A stretch of 51,485 nucleotides of DNA from positions 1-51,485 of the forward strand of contig JAUWQI010000007.1 of assembly GCA_030611085.1 (NCBI GenBank). Direction: 5' to 3'. The position numbers and the translations under genes were made by a program. The stretch's first letter is position 1; each line of letters opens with the position of its first letter. The notes under the pieces are model-generated. The model had not been told where the DNA came from and searched no databases. It saw only the letters and a list, made by a program, of their open reading frames with translations. Positions 2,298 to 22,368 of the stretch are shown here, piece by piece. This DNA comes from Dehalococcoidia bacterium (GTDB taxonomy: Bacteria > Chloroflexota > Dehalococcoidia > GIF9 > AB-539-J10).

Positions 2298-2446
2298 AAT
2301 GAGCCGCCGCTCCTTTTATGGCTCATCATGTAATGCGCTATAGGAAAAGGAAGCTCCTAGTTAAATACCCTCCAAATGTATAGTCTTAATCTTCCTAATA
2401 CTAAAGTTAAAATGGCTTGTTACAGGGGTGTTTAGCAACCCTATTT

Positions 2447-2566
2447 GTCATTCTGAGCTCTATGGGCGAAGAATCTCTTTAGACTCTTCGCGGAGTTTAT
2501 CCTGAGTGAGATTCTTCAGTCGCTCCTCTCCTTCAGAATGACAAGAGGCGAAGGGCTCAGAGTGAC
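2447..2566. repeat. Long imperfect inverted repeat of the GTCATTCTGAG / CTTCGCGGAGTTTATCCTGAGTGAGATTCTTC family
   Basis: GTCATTCTGA (2447) is inverted as TCAGAATGAC (2533-2542); shares sequence with 8125-8200 and 14808-14870. Confidence 0.85.
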
Positions 2567-2715
2567 ATTTATTCAACTAGTTAATAAACACTCGCTTGTT
2601 ACCTCTATTGACATCCACTCGCGTAGCTAGTATCTTAATTCTTACAGTTGAAAGTGTTAGGAAGATATTTGATTTAAGGCAGCACCTATTTACCAAATGA
2701 CAGGAAAGCTAGTAT

Positions 2716-3603
2716 ATGCGTATTGTTAGAGGGATTTTCTCGGGTATCTTTAGCTTTGTGTTGGTTGTTGTTCTGGTCGTTCTAGGCATTGTTACCACTA
2801 TAAACCTTACCATCCTCAATCCAAATTTTGTCATCTCCGAACTCGATAAATTAGATGCCTACCCAATCATTACTGACCAGGTGAAAAACCAATTGCCCGA
2901 AGAAGAACCATACATAGCTCAAATTGCAGATGAAACCCTCGCTGAACTCGAACCATGGATGAAAGAGCAGGTTACCACTATCGTTCCCAGTGGCTATGCT
3001 TATCTTAAGGGAGAGGAAGAGCTCAATATAGTTATTCCATTAGGGCAAGTAAGAGCTAGCCTTAAGGAAAATTTGGCGGAAGCTATGCGCGAATCTCCCC
3101 CACCTGAGTTAGAAGGACTTCCGCCGGAGCAGATAGAGGCCTTCATATCCCAAGCATGTGCCGAGATAGATAGCCATGTCCCACAGCAAATCGAGATTAA
3201 TGAAGCCTTTCTGGGACCAGAAATAGTAACGCAACTTCAGAAAGCAAAGGAAATTATTGGTTACATTGAGTTTGGCTATAAAGCCTTGATTGGGCTAGCC
3301 ACTCTGCTGATATTAATTATAGCTTTGATACAATGGTGGCGTGCCAAGCCTATTACCCGTTATATCAGCATATCATTTACCGTAGCTGGTGTTCTCAGTC
3401 TCGTGAGCACTATAGCTGCCAGACACTTTGACTTCCAAGCAATCCAGCTTGATATCCCTCCTGAGATTGGTGCAAAGTTGCCCCAGTTAATCAGCGATAC
3501 CACCTCTCCCTTACTGATATATAGCGTGGCATTTCTGGTTGTCGGCATAGGGCTAATTGCGCTCTCCGTTAAGCTCAAATCTCCCGATGTCGAAAACATA
3601 TAG
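2716..3603 (+). CDS. Hypothetical membrane protein
   Basis: Hydrophobic N-terminal segment, soluble domain, three C-terminal hydrophobic segments. Confidence 0.7.
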   Translation: MRIVRGIFSGIFSFVLVVVLVVLGIVTTINLTILNPNFVISELDKLDAYPIITDQVKNQLPEEEPYIAQIADETLAELEPWMKEQVTTIVPSGYAYLKGEEELNIVIPLGQVRASLKENLAEAMRESPPPELEGLPPEQIEAFISQACAEIDSHVPQQIEINEAFLGPEIVTQLQKAKEIIGYIEFGYKALIGLATLLILIIALIQWWRAKPITRYISISFTVAGVLSLVSTIAARHFDFQAIQLDIPPEIGAKLPQLISDTTSPLLIYSVAFLVVGIGLIALSVKLKSPDVENI

Positions 3604-3682
3604 GAAACCTTCATTATAGTGATGAATGGTTACAAGCACGTAAAATGTTCGCTGTAAGATATAAGATATTAACTATAGTTAA

Positions 3683-3838
3683 CCGCATAATCTCGTATAA
3701 AATTCCTGTCCCTTGAAGGGGGAGGATTGTAGTTGCCTGATTCATCAGGCTTAGCCCAATAAATTGGGCAACTACACTGTTAAATAGCCTCACCCCTCCC
3801 GCTAGAGGAAGGAGAATTATAATGAATTTTGCAATTGA
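3683..3838. repeat. ~155 bp structured repeat, copy 2 (direct orientation relative to copy 1)
   Basis: Shares GGAGGATTGTAGTTGCCTGATTCATCAGGCTTAGCCCAATAAATTGGGCAACTACA and flanking hairpins with copy 1. Confidence 0.9.
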
Positions 3839-3854
3839 CTATAAAATCCTCTAG

Positions 3855-8124: not shown

Positions 8125-8200
8125 GATTCTTCGCAGAGTTTATCCTGAGTGAGATTCTTCGGTCGCTTCGCTCCCTCAGAATGACAAGAGGCGAAGCGTT
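8125..8200. repeat. Intergenic copy of the TGTCATTCTGAGGGAGC...CCGAAGAATCTCACTCAGGATAAACTCTGCGAAGAAT repeat family
   Basis: Reverse complement closely matches the in-gene copy at 14808-14870. Confidence 0.85.
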
Positions 8201-10583: not shown

Positions 10584-12104
10584 CTATTTCTGTTTTGTGA
10601 GATTGCTTCGCTGCGCTCGCAATGACAATTCCTTCCGTACTAAGGCCAGAGCCTCTTCCCTATTAGTTAACTCGCCGCTAGCTTGGGCTTCATGAACTAC
10701 GGCTAAAAGCTCACCAATCAATGGTCCTGGAGTTAAGCCAACGATATTTATCAAATCATGGCCATCGACAAGCTTCATCGGCAAGATTTTGACTTGCTGC
10801 TTGTCATGCTCGCTCAATATATAGCTTGCCACCCGACACTGCCTTCTCCACTCCTCCATATCTACAAGGGGGCCACGGCTCGCCAGATAATCAGCCAAAG
10901 CTAAAAGCAGAATATCAATGCCAGCGTCACCAGTATCGCGGAAGTAGCGATAGATTGCCCGCTGAGTAGGCAATTCCCCGTTTGCCATCTGGGCGGGGCG
11001 AAGGTGATAATACACTAGGTTTTCCACTAAATTTATTTCCCGGTTGCTAAATCGCAACTTCTCTAGAATGCTCGCAGTCATTGCTGCCCCTTGCTTAGTA
11101 TGCCCTAAGAACCTCGCTCTACCCGTATCATCAAGAGACTTTGTTCTGGGTTTGGCAACATCGTGGAGTAACCCACCTAGCTTAAGCAAAACTTTGCGAT
11201 TACTCCCGTGGGAAATCTCTTGGGACAAATGCTCCTCTATCATATCAGACCATAGAGCAGTACTTAGTATATCTTCATTGCCATATTCCCAGTCGCTTTC
11301 TCTAATTAAGAATTCTACCGTAGCCACCGTTTGCAAGGAATGCTCAAAGACATCCCAGAAGTGTACTGTTGGTTGCTCTACCGCTTTGCTCTCCCCTAGT
11401 TCGGGGATTAGGACTAGAAGCAAGCCGAGCTGGTCTAAATATCTCAGATGATAGTATGCTCGGGGCAAACTGAGCAATCGGAGCAATTCCTCCCTAACTC
11501 TCTCCCCAGGAATTTTACCAGTGGATTGAGAATAGCGACGAATTAAACTTTCTGTCTCTGGCTCTATGGCAAAATCGAGCTCAGCAGCCAACCTCACTGC
11601 CCGCAATAATCTGGCGGCATCAGCTTCAAATATCTGGTCACTCACTGCTCGCACGGTCCTATTTCCCAAATCCTCCTTCCCAGAAAAGGGGTCAATAAGC
11701 AATGTTTGAGATTGCTTCACTTCAGGCTCGTAGCTAACAAATTGGCCAAGCTCCATAGCCATAGCATTTATGGTGAAGTCACGGCGGGCAAGGTCAGATT
11801 CAATGTCTTCACTGAATGAGGAAAAATCAAAATACCATTCCTTCTCCCCCTCCATTATTACCACCCTAGCTATGCCGTTTGCCTCATCAAGCAGCACGAA
11901 TTTGCCTCCAAACTCTCTAGCCACGCCTCTAGCTATGCTTAGGGCGTTTCCATCCACGGCGATATCGACATCATTGGTTTGTCTGCCCAAGAGCCAATCG
12001 CGAATGAAGCCACCAACGATATAGCCAGGATGGCTTCCTTGAGATAGCAATTCGTATAACTTATTTAAGACGGTAATTAAATTACTTATTTCGGGGAAGG
12101 ACAT
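10584..12104 (-). CDS. cca: CCA tRNA nucleotidyltransferase / poly(A) polymerase family with HD domain
   Basis: GGFIRDWLLGRQTNDVDIAVDG, RRDFTINAMA, RAVRLAAELDF, LLHDVAKPRTK (HD). Confidence 0.88.
   Translation of the reverse strand: MSFPEISNLITVLNKLYELLSQGSHPGYIVGGFIRDWLLGRQTNDVDIAVDGNALSIARGVAREFGGKFVLLDEANGIARVVIMEGEKEWYFDFSSFSEDIESDLARRDFTINAMAMELGQFVSYEPEVKQSQTLLIDPFSGKEDLGNRTVRAVSDQIFEADAARLLRAVRLAAELDFAIEPETESLIRRYSQSTGKIPGERVREELLRLLSLPRAYYHLRYLDQLGLLLVLIPELGESKAVEQPTVHFWDVFEHSLQTVATVEFLIRESDWEYGNEDILSTALWSDMIEEHLSQEISHGSNRKVLLKLGGLLHDVAKPRTKSLDDTGRARFLGHTKQGAAMTASILEKLRFSNREINLVENLVYYHLRPAQMANGELPTQRAIYRYFRDTGDAGIDILLLALADYLASRGPLVDMEEWRRQCRVASYILSEHDKQQVKILPMKLVDGHDLINIVGLTPGPLIGELLAVVHEAQASGELTNREEALALVRKELSLRAQRSNLTKQK
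10599..10626. repeat. GAGATTGCTTCGCTGCGCTCGCAATGAC palindromic repeat within the cca 3' end
   Basis: Imperfect inverted repeat; translates as ...SLRAQRSNLTKQK at the Cca C-terminus. Confidence 0.75.
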
Positions 12105-14105: not shown

Positions 14106-15548
14106 TTAGAAAGTCTCCACCTTGCTTTCCAATTCTCCCCACATTCCTCGGTTGCAAAATCCCATGAGTTTAACCGCTGCTATTTTATTGGTCAGTGGTT
14201 CCTGGCTTTGGGTAAATACCCTGATATAGTTACCAGTTAACCCAGAGTATATACCTCTACCTGGATTTATTTCCTTTTCCCACAAAACAGATATGGTTTG
14301 CCCTATAAATTGTTGCCAGAAGCTACGCCGACAGTCTTTAGCTAGCTGTAACATTCGCTGGGTACGCTCTTTCTTTATTTCATCCCTAACTTGGTGAGGC
14401 ATTTCGGCTGCCTCCGTTCCCGGCCGAAGCGAAAAAGGGAAAACATGGATGTTGGCAAAGTCAGCCTGCTGGCAAAAATGATAGCTTTGCTCAAACTCTT
14501 CACTGCTTTCCCCAGGGAAGCCCACCATAACATCAGTGGTAATAGCCACTTGGGGTATCGCCTCCCTAATTGAACTTATTGCTCTTTGATAATCATCCAA
14601 TGAGTAGCGTCGCCTCATCCTTTGAAGCACAGCACCGCTTCCGCTTTGAAGGGCTAAGTGGAAATGGCGACAAAGCCTTTTGTCTTGCCACAGGGCAAGC
14701 AATTCGGGAGAGACTTCTTGAGGCTGCAGAGAAGAGAGACGGAGCCTCTCAATAGTTGTGTTGCAAAGGATATTTTCTATCAAATCCCTAAGGGCGGCTT
14801 CAGTGGGAAATTCTTCGCAGAGTTTATCCTGAGTGAGATTCTTCGGGCGCTCCTCTCCCTCAGAATGACAACCTTCCTTTGTCACCCTGGAAGTGAAGGA
14901 TCTCAGGGAGTCTTTATAGCAGCCGATTTTAGTCCCGGTGAGAACAACTTCCTTATAACCCATAGCCACCTTTTGCTTAATCTCTCCAATTATTTGGGAA
15001 GCGGGCAAGGAATATTCATGTGGTCTTACCTTGGGCACAATACAGTAAGCGCACGGGCTATGACAGCCATCTTGAATCTTCACCAGGGAGCGAACTCTGG
15101 GGTTAAGAGGGGCGTGAGGCTGCTGCGATACTCCTTCGGGAAGTTTACCCTGAGCGAGATTCTTCGGTTGCTTCTCTTCCTCAGAATGACAGGAAGAGAA
15201 AGACTCAGGCTTTGTAGCTAACAAGCCTTTTACAATCTCGAGTAGATGTTTTTTCTCCTCGTTGTCAAGGACAAGGTCGGCAAGCTGAGCCAACTCGCGA
15301 GGAACTCTCTGAGCATAGCACCCAGTGGCAATGGTGAAAGCCTCAGGATTTCTCCGTCTTGCCAGTCTGAGCCAATGGCGTGACTTACGGTCAGCTACAT
15401 GAGTGACGGTGCAAGTATTAGCGATGTAGATATCGGCTACACTATTAGGAGCTACAAGCTGATATCCCGCTTGGCTAAACTGGCTAGCCAGATATTCTGT
15501 TTCCGCTTGATTGAGCTTACACCCCAGCGTGTAAAAAGCTACCCTCAT
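14106..15548 (-). CDS. mtaB: tRNA t6A37 methylthiotransferase MtaB-like (MiaB family radical SAM)
   Basis: VAFYTLGCKLNQAETEYLASQF, VKIQDGCHSPCAYCIVPKVRP, LRLSSLQPQEV; two repeat-like inserts. Confidence 0.9.
   Translation of the reverse strand: MRVAFYTLGCKLNQAETEYLASQFSQAGYQLVAPNSVADIYIANTCTVTHVADRKSRHWLRLARRRNPEAFTIATGCYAQRVPRELAQLADLVLDNEEKKHLLEIVKGLLATKPESFSSCHSEEEKQPKNLAQGKLPEGVSQQPHAPLNPRVRSLVKIQDGCHSPCAYCIVPKVRPHEYSLPASQIIGEIKQKVAMGYKEVVLTGTKIGCYKDSLRSFTSRVTKEGCHSEGEERPKNLTQDKLCEEFPTEAALRDLIENILCNTTIERLRLSSLQPQEVSPELLALWQDKRLCRHFHLALQSGSGAVLQRMRRRYSLDDYQRAISSIREAIPQVAITTDVMVGFPGESSEEFEQSYHFCQQADFANIHVFPFSLRPGTEAAEMPHQVRDEIKKERTQRMLQLAKDCRRSFWQQFIGQTISVLWEKEINPGRGIYSGLTGNYIRVFTQSQEPLTNKIAAVKLMGFCNRGMWGELESKVETF
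14808..14870. repeat. Palindromic-family repeat inside mtaB (copy B)
   Basis: Minus strand TGTCATTCTGAGGGAGAGGAGCGCCCGAAGAATCTCACTCAGGATAAACTCTGCGAAGAATTT, in frame as CHSEGEERPKNLTQDKLCEEF. Confidence 0.9.
15124..15189. repeat. Palindromic-family repeat inside mtaB (copy A)
   Basis: Minus strand TGTCATTCTGAGGAAGAGAAGCAACCGAAGAATCTCGCTCAGGGTAAACTTCCCGAAGGAGTA, in frame as CHSEEEKQPKNLAQGKLPEGV. Confidence 0.9.
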
Positions 15549-19077: not shown

Positions 19078-20322
19078 CTAACTTTTTCTTCTACATGACC
19101 TCCGCCAATCCCACTCCTCTAAAGCCAAGGCACCCCATAAAGCCAGTGCTGTAGCTAATGCCGATAATACAGCGATTAGGGCGGGGTAAGATTGCCACGC
19201 TTTACTCGCAATGACACTGCTTCGGCTCACCGTAATGACTGCAGGGGCTAACAGCGTTTCTTGCCAGCGGCTATCAAGCCCATCTATATCAAAGCCATAA
19301 ACCTGGGTTAAGGCTTCGTCGTAGGTGTTGCCTTGTTTTAACAAGGTTAGCAAATGGAGCATCTTATCTTGACTGTAATTATTGAGGAGGTATTCCACCA
19401 AGCTATAACTCTCGGCATAGGAAAGATAAGCCTTTTCCGGTTCGGCAGAAAAGGGGCTGCATAAGCTGCGCACTGAAATAAGCTTATTTTCAGAAATAGC
19501 CTTCGCTAACCAGGATTGCAGAAACGGCTCAAGTTCGCCTTCATTGTACATAGCTAAGCCTTCATCAAGCCAGACGGGAAGTCTGCCATAGGGGCTGAAA
19601 GTCGCCTGATGAACAACCAGATGCGTTAGCTCGTGAACCAAAGCCCTCTTGCCCCAGTCAAGCCTGTCTGGTGAAACGCCAATGGCAATTATGCCAAACT
19701 CAGTGAAGGCAACACCCCCAGTCCATTCCATAGGAAAAATCATGGCTCCTTGCAGGTCCCTGGACGAAGTATAAATATATATTTTGATTGGTCTCTCTGG
19801 ATAGGTGCCAATATTTTGAGTCAATCTAGCAAGCCCTGCCTCGCAAGCATTCATTAATTCGCGAGCGAAGGAATCATCACCTTCATACCAAAAAAGGGTT
19901 AGTTTGCCCTCGGTCAAACTTCGCCAATCATAGCGGCTATCTTCGAAAAGCGCCGTAGTAGAGGGAGTTTCAACTTTGTTCCCAGCCTTATCCTCAACTG
20001 TCCACCAATATGTTATAGCTGTCCCCGGAGGTAAGCTTGCCTTCCTCATATCCCATGTCCAACTGGTTTTCACCCTGCTTGCTGGAGTGAAATCAGGCCA
20101 GCCTTCACTGGTAACTTGAGCATAATTCATTTTATCCACTTGATAATGAAGGCGAGCATCAACAATGGTGACAGAGCTTTCAGCTTCAAGATTAAAAGTA
20201 AGCGCAGTGGGAAAATTTATTTCTACGCTGCTATCTATTATTGAGACATCGTTGCCAGCATTGACAACGGAAGGAATCAGCAGCAGAAGCGTTAAGATTA
20301 CTAAGCCGATGCGTTTAATCAT
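19078..20322 (-). CDS. Peptidase MA-like gluzincin metalloprotease with C-terminal TM
   Basis: LVHELTHLVVHQATFSPYGRLPVWLDEGLAMYNEG (HExxH...E). Confidence 0.85.
   Translation of the reverse strand: MIKRIGLVILTLLLLIPSVVNAGNDVSIIDSSVEINFPTALTFNLEAESSVTIVDARLHYQVDKMNYAQVTSEGWPDFTPASRVKTSWTWDMRKASLPPGTAITYWWTVEDKAGNKVETPSTTALFEDSRYDWRSLTEGKLTLFWYEGDDSFARELMNACEAGLARLTQNIGTYPERPIKIYIYTSSRDLQGAMIFPMEWTGGVAFTEFGIIAIGVSPDRLDWGKRALVHELTHLVVHQATFSPYGRLPVWLDEGLAMYNEGELEPFLQSWLAKAISENKLISVRSLCSPFSAEPEKAYLSYAESYSLVEYLLNNYSQDKMLHLLTLLKQGNTYDEALTQVYGFDIDGLDSRWQETLLAPAVITVSRSSVIASKAWQSYPALIAVLSALATALALWGALALEEWDWRRSCRRKS
19191..19217. repeat. Repeat-like segment GATTGCCACGCTTTACTCGCAATGACA inside the peptidase-MA CDS
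   Basis: In-frame translation SVIASKAWQSYP between the peptidase domain and the TM helix. Confidence 0.7.
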
Positions 20323-22244: not shown

Positions 22245-22312
22245 TTTGTCTTTGCTATTATAAGATGCTTTAATAACCAAAGCAAGATGAAATAATATCC
22301 GTTTAGTCTTGT

Positions 22313-22368
22313 GTCATTCTGAGCATAGCGAAGAATCTCTAGACCCTTCGCTTCGCTCAGGGTGACAG
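22313..22368. repeat. GTCATTCTGAG...AGGGTGAC imperfect inverted repeat in the apgM leader
   Basis: TGTCATTCTGAGCATAGCGAAGAATCTCTAGACCCTTCGCTTCGCTCAGGGTGACA. Confidence 0.8.

Follow-up and report, generated by a model that had tools for sequence, protein, structure and literature searches.

The window analysed here, a 51,485-nt stretch of a metagenomic Dehalococcoidia contig (JAUWQI010000007.1), encodes on its minus strand (14106..15548) the tRNA t6A37 C2-methylthiotransferase MtaB, a protein of 480 aa read from one open frame that carries two repeat-derived insertions. In profile searches, the protein scored above the cut-off of the curated NCBIfam family TIGR01579 (394 bits; cut-off 357) and contained the Pfam domains UPF0004 (2-91) and Radical_SAM (157-359). 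Six of its cysteines are invariant in the MtaB alignment, three N-terminal (C10, C46, C77) and three in the radical-SAM CxxxCxxC motif (C162, C166, C169), and the closest folds to its model were those of MtaB (9a6d) and MiaB (7mjv-7mjz), with a TM of about 0.77. The profile search detected a single mtaB gene in this 83% complete bin. An antisense ORF of 187 aa (14658-15218) had no Pfam match and was taken as spurious.

The first insertion (site 1; 15105..15206, minus strand, aa ~115-148) occupies the linker between the UPF0004 and radical-SAM domains, as delimited by self-comparison of loci from the same genome, orthologue alignment and AlphaFold; the repeat-supported stretch extends over 15116-15209. 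Its core copy (15134..15191, minus strand) is 90% identical to the 64-nt consensus of the repeat, referred to below as the CHSE repeat, and encodes CHSEEEKQPKNLAQGKLPE in frame f1, while the entire insert, KPESFSSCHSEEEKQPKNLAQGKLPEGVSQQPH, has a full-length match to a composite found in TruA, SPEPCASCHSEGAKRPKNLAQGEIREGEAQQSH. The second insertion (site 2; 14811..14912, minus strand, aa ~213-246), delimited by orthologue alignment and pLDDT, follows LTGTKIGCYKD in a loop of the radical-SAM domain, at a position where most aligned MtaB orthologues have no residues. Its core copy (14807..14870, minus strand, 91% identity to the consensus) encodes CHSEGEERPKNLTQDKLCEEF, also in frame f1, and is preceded by a module CTGAGATCCTTCACTTCCAGGGTGACA and a short spacer, an arrangement like that found upstream of gmk. 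A first-pass annotation of this DNA had proposed two copies of one repeat within MtaB, in the same frame and orientation and with the reading frame open across both, and all of this holds, with the catalytic cysteines kept.

The same annotation had placed the inserts at domain boundaries or surface loops, which agrees with their positions and with the structural prediction. In the AlphaFold model (A1, window protein with 19 relatives), the mean pLDDT was 82 and values below 50 were restricted to residues 114-148 and 215-250, which correspond to the two insertions in an otherwise confidently modelled MtaB fold, and to the last four residues. Both segments are thus predicted to be disordered; since gapped alignment columns themselves depress pLDDT, the model supports this disorder but does not prove it. 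MtaB was present in 48 of the 61 genomes searched, including the source genome. As the length of the interdomain linker varies among these orthologues, the segments might be imagined as native, conserved parts of MtaB whose likeness to intergenic DNA is secondary. However, an alignment of 30 sequences, a comparison that the first-pass annotation had suggested, showed that both are absent from the MtaB of the repeat-free relatives (G002, G007, G010, G013, G016 and G020), and it is the DNA, not the peptide alone, that matches dozens of intergenic copies as well as insertions in unrelated genes. We give this reading virtually no weight.

Near-identical intergenic copies had also been reported in the window, and they are real. 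One, on the minus strand (8125..8186), is 97% identical to the consensus and is not crossed by any long ORF; another, near 2481-2543, belongs to a long palindromic, two-headed intergenic copy, TGTCATTCTGAG...CTCAGAGTGACA (2440..2570). A short two-headed REP dimer, made of TGTCATTCTGAGCATAGCGAAGAATCTC plus TGTCACCCTGAGCGAAGCGAAGGGTCT on the opposite strand, is located beside a tRNA gene (22311..22367), and an Rfam scan of the window returned nothing except one tRNA. The window also contains other repeats. Direct repeats of 108 and 53 nt at 1404-1582 and 3674-3848, 2266-2270 bp apart and with a CTCTCCCTTGAAGGGAGAGG palindrome, are unrelated to the CHSE repeat, and a second REP family, GTCATTGCGAG...GAAGCAATCTCAC, has copies at 10597-10627 and 19186-19216.

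The CHSE repeat is modular. Its 64-nt unit consists of module A (TGTCATTCTGAGGGAGCGAAGCGACCGAAGAATCTC) followed by module B (GCTCAGGATAAACTCCGCGAAGAATCTC); many copies are preceded by a short head, TGTCATTCTGAGCCCTTCGCTTC, and many intergenic ones have a closing inverted head, GACCCTTCGCTTCGCTCAGGGTGACA. It had first been described as a palindromic repeat of ~63 bp, a description that stands only in part: the repeat exists, but the MtaB inserts are longer, about 100 nt each, because they include adjoining modules of this repeat system, and the A+B unit on its own does not stand out as a palindrome (DNA fold z = +0.73). Good folding is confined to the two-headed form that lies between genes, TGTCATTCTGAG...CTCAGGGTGACA (z = -2.18), which is a real palindrome. 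The closing inverted module was found in 2 of 32 in-gene copies versus 14 of 43 other copies (p = 0.009), and the folding energy per nucleotide did not differ between the two groups (p = 0.24).

In its general build the repeat resembles the CGTC-tagged REPs described by Di Nocera in 2013 (PMC3733652), a superfamily that includes RPE-4 and RPE-6 of Rickettsia conorii and dRS3 of Neisseria. These have a CGTC tag, with TGTC as a frequent variant, an AT-first stem of 8-9 bp, a loop of 4-5 nt and a tail that is mostly CCA; they have no dedicated transposase, and head-to-head dimers predominate whereas tail-to-tail ones are rare (PMC3733652). Our unit starts with TGTC, or with CGTC in several copies (L042, L048, L051 and L070), and its short form, TGTC-ATTCTGAG-CGAAG-CGAAGAAT-CTC, has an AT-first stem and a 5-nt loop and would fit the REP stem with two GA mismatches, the computed stem having only 5+2 bp. 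In contrast with the published elements, the 3-nt tail is CTC instead of CCA, the stem contains the GA mismatches, and the main, long form has a larger loop. Dimers with the TGTC tags outward are common, an arrangement that may differ from the predominant head-to-head one of PMC3733652. Thus, the sequence makes membership in the CGTC-tagged superfamily likely but not proven, since the tag and general build agree and the tail, the stem mismatches and perhaps the dimer type differ. No GTAG tag was found at the repeat ends, which places the repeat outside the RAYT-associated GTAG REPs. The Y1_Tnp domain (PF01797) of Y1/RAYT transposases was not detected in the 83% complete bin; among nine genomes, G005 and G027 had one each.

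The source genome (G000) is a metagenomic bin of 1.16 Mb in 30 contigs, assigned to the Dehalococcoidia (Chloroflexota), and those of its relatives that have names are bins of Dehalococcoidia and Chloroflexi. A search with core copy 2 yielded 41 matches in this genome, the best outside mtaB having an E-value of 1.5e-22, which excludes chance similarity. From the stretches read around these matches we collected 45 copies that were 30 nt or longer, a sample and not a complete census, and considered as in-gene those within an ORF of 180 aa or more that extended for 25 aa or more beyond each end of the copy. Eighteen of the 45 sampled copies were in genes, nearly all of them recognised conserved ones, identified by HMM as BirA, a DnaC-like ATPase, HisC, CarA, a radical-SAM protein, FolC, Gmk, ProS, GlmM/PGM, HypF (twice), TsaC, TruA, a DUF2851 protein, RecO, PolA, MiaB and MtaB (twice). 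The copies in gmk and tsaC, which sit ahead of the conserved domain, are possibly untranslated. In several hosts the inserts fall between Pfam domain ends (BirA 232/314, CarA 170/253, HypF 148/198, MiaB 104/167 and MtaB 91/157), and MiaB, a paralogue of MtaB, harbours a copy of opposite orientation in the linker that corresponds to site 1 of MtaB. The double hit in mtaB, singled out as notable in the first-pass annotation, is therefore real but accompanied by hits in many other genes of the genome. Long copies in this genome were in genes far more often than short ones (17 of 29 versus 1 of 16, p = 0.0005; p = 0.07 over four genomes), and the ORF layout, as opposed to homology, revealed no obvious genes broken by the repeat near the non-coding copies. 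At another locus (L073, G000:C15, about 2620-2731, minus strand), a different repeat, TGTCATTGTGGGCAAAGCGAAGAATCTC, seems to continue in frame into PRVILVVGVNGSGKTTSTAKL, with which an FtsY-like GTPase domain begins.

Sister genomes have their own hosts, including RuvX, DapF, UvrA, SecA, aconitase, Mfd and ribosomal protein L13, among others, as well as a shikimate kinase-DHQ synthase fusion (SK-DHQS) with the insert between its domains. In the L13 of G019 and G005 (L098, L132), the repeat encodes a C-terminal tail. Altogether, 39 of the 103 copies sampled in four genomes of the family were in genes, as against none of 30 in G052 and G057, which belong to another family and also have this repeat (p = 7e-6); the samples are centred on the best matches and incomplete, and some insertions are common to several genomes. 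In PolA, the repeat follows GKAFYIPLRLL in G000 (L062, G000:C6), G005 (L124) and G027 (L110) alike. As these represent two genera, the PolA insertion is probably older than their separation and has been kept in frame.

MtaB itself is a recurrent target. G019 and one of the two MtaB proteins of G027 likewise have the CHSE repeat at site 1, and a further copy occupies a third site, after LWQD, in both genomes. Site 1 of G011, which belongs to a sister genus, contains another repeat in frame, GTCATTGCGAGG...GAAGC, with 11 matches in that genome and decayed-looking forms in its relatives. A palindrome lies at site 1 of G005, and at site 2 a short sequence resembling a palindrome, CCTGAGCGATAGCGAAGGATCT or a variant of it, is present in G019, G027, G008 and G006; given their low copy number, these elements of site 1 and site 2 are only suggestive. 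Between G005 and G027, the mtaB ends are 92-100% identical but identity falls to 35% at site 1, and the insert sites are all changed (L012, L039, L040). The two genes thus form a mosaic, the central block of one of them being recombinant, and insertions can accordingly be exchanged between relatives. The G027 bin contains two mtaB genes (L010, L039), one of which groups with another genus (G003, G017), and it is therefore probably contaminated.

In a repeat-rich metagenome bin of 30 contigs, mtaB might be a decaying pseudogene or the product of misassembly at the repeats, either of which the first-pass annotation had named as fatal to its proposal. The data speak against both. A join at a 64-bp repeat would connect different genes and not two parts of the same gene in frame; the frame and catalytic residues are intact in what is the only mtaB found in the bin, and its regions flanking the inserts are under purifying selection (pS 0.60 and pN 0.16 against G019). 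In addition, a similar pattern is seen in many conserved genes and in bins of sister genera, including the PolA site common to G000, G005 and G027. We consider this explanation very unlikely.

Four of the six frames of the unit are free of stops, and their use is strongly unequal. Orthologous insertions were counted once and N-terminal ones were removed by hand; the independent insertions that remained in the four related genomes amounted to 21 in f1 (CHSEGAKRPKNLAQDKLREES), 7 in r1 (EILRGVYPERDSSVASLPQND), 1 in f2 (VILRERSDRRISLRINSAKNL) and none in r2 (RFFAEFILSEILRSLRSLRMT); frames were assigned by peptide, some script-labelled r2 cases being r1 peptides behind a one-base gap. The lead of f1 is significant against equal chances (binomial p = 1e-7), also in the source genome alone (12 of 17, p = 1e-4), so that the tabulation by frame proposed in the first-pass annotation favours f1. 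The order of usage follows the hydropathy of the peptides (f1 -1.66, r1 -0.71, f2 -0.57, r2 +0.39).

Such a marked preference for one peptide frame, together with the maintenance of insertions in the PolA of different genera and, within genus g6, at two sites of MtaB, could mean that the f1 peptide has been taken up for a selected property, such as interaction, regulation or contact with RNA. We regard this as quite unlikely: the host proteins are unrelated, opposite-strand peptides are used as well (the 7 r1 cases), inserts differ and decay between lineages, and hydrophilicity alone could account for the frame preference. Moreover, the ratio of nonsynonymous to synonymous changes is not lower in the inserts than in their flanks (about 10:5 versus 170:210, p = 0.07, with few changes). 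Removal after transcription or skipping during translation, in the manner of introns, inteins or bypass elements, is suggested by the insertion of a partly palindromic repeat in conserved genes, but the reading frame continues uninterrupted across the insert in those hosts that were verified, most in-gene copies have no hairpin-closing module and a biased peptide frame is expected only for a translated insert, which makes this mechanism exceedingly improbable. Some weight, albeit small, can be given to the idea that the in-gene form has itself evolved as a stop-free, weakly folding A+B unit that codes for hydrophilic peptides and spreads in the coding DNA of one Dehalococcoidia family, the hairpin dimer staying intergenic and the family of G052 and G057 keeping the repeat out of its genes.

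Beyond what had been proposed in the first-pass annotation, repeat insertion was thus found to be genome-wide, frame-biased and common to sister genera. We consider it highly probable that both MtaB segments represent a REP-like mobile repeat in translated form and that the copies in genes survive as hydrophilic, disordered and probably near-neutral loops. In the model that we favour, a REP-like repeat with a TGTC/CGTC tag and the modules TGTCATTCTGAG...GAAGAATCTC and GCTCAGGATAAACTCCGCGAAGAATCTC would have multiplied in one Dehalococcoidia family, its copies landing both in genes and in intergenic DNA. Those in genes would be kept only if their length preserved the frame, the frame was stop-free, the peptide was hydrophilic and the site was a linker or surface loop. 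The result would be an enzyme that still works but bears a disordered loop; this loop, neutral or of slight cost, could then persist, decay or move between relatives via recombination. We infer that mtaB is translated and active with its loops, that these are near-neutral and that the repeat is mobile through an as yet hypothetical enzyme. Since neither a precise empty site nor a target duplication could be delimited, insertion by transposition is also something that we infer rather than observe.

Several known systems provide a framework for these observations. The Rickettsia palindromic elements (RPEs; Ogata 2000) are short mobile repeats that occur between genes and also, in frame, within many conserved protein genes, and a guanylate kinase bearing an RPE is translated and active in Rickettsia (PMC2229807). 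Our repeat shares with them the coexistence of in-frame and intergenic copies, and gmk is among the hosts of both, although the gmk copy found here is upstream of the conserved domain and maybe untranslated, and its host is an uncultured member of the Dehalococcoidia. RPEs measure 105-146 bp and have terminal inverted repeats and long hairpins, whereas the in-gene copies studied here measure ~64-100 nt and are weakly palindromic; compared with the RPE-1 type, they agree in being in frame in conserved genes but differ in length and fold (z = +0.73), and in most of them the second inverted end is missing. The enterobacterial RU-1/ERIC, RU-2 and RU-3 are MITE-like repeats fused in frame to ORFs (PMC2229807, PMC2759123), also small and mobile, but they are other, longer elements (103-168 bp) whose fusions often affect hypothetical proteins. 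In the first-pass annotation, in-frame palindromic elements had been noted as known from Rickettsia, and two in one conserved gene of an unrelated lineage as a case that would be notable. Such cases outside Rickettsia are on record: intragenic CGTC-tagged REPs have already been reported in PolA, in UvrA and in doubly hit ORFs, with a suggested placement in linkers (PMC3733652), and the repeat described here shares the PolA and UvrA hosts and the doubly hit ORFs with them. The text of that article makes no mention of Dehalococcoidia, our literature search on Dehalococcoidia and palindromic repeats retrieved no description of the repeat, and a search for the literal TGTCATTCTGAG gave an unrelated match only.

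What we report is therefore a known phenomenon, seen here at high density in a new lineage and with a new repeat family. The decoration of core proteins by peptides derived from mobile repeats, usually called an oddity of Rickettsia, is dense in a Chloroflexota lineage too, where the decorated hosts include SecA, UvrA, PolA, ProS and CarA. This also calls for caution, as one repeat peptide can turn up in many unrelated annotated proteins. Together, the many independent insertions, the frame bias and the contrast between families constitute a natural experiment on which peptides, and at which positions, are tolerated.
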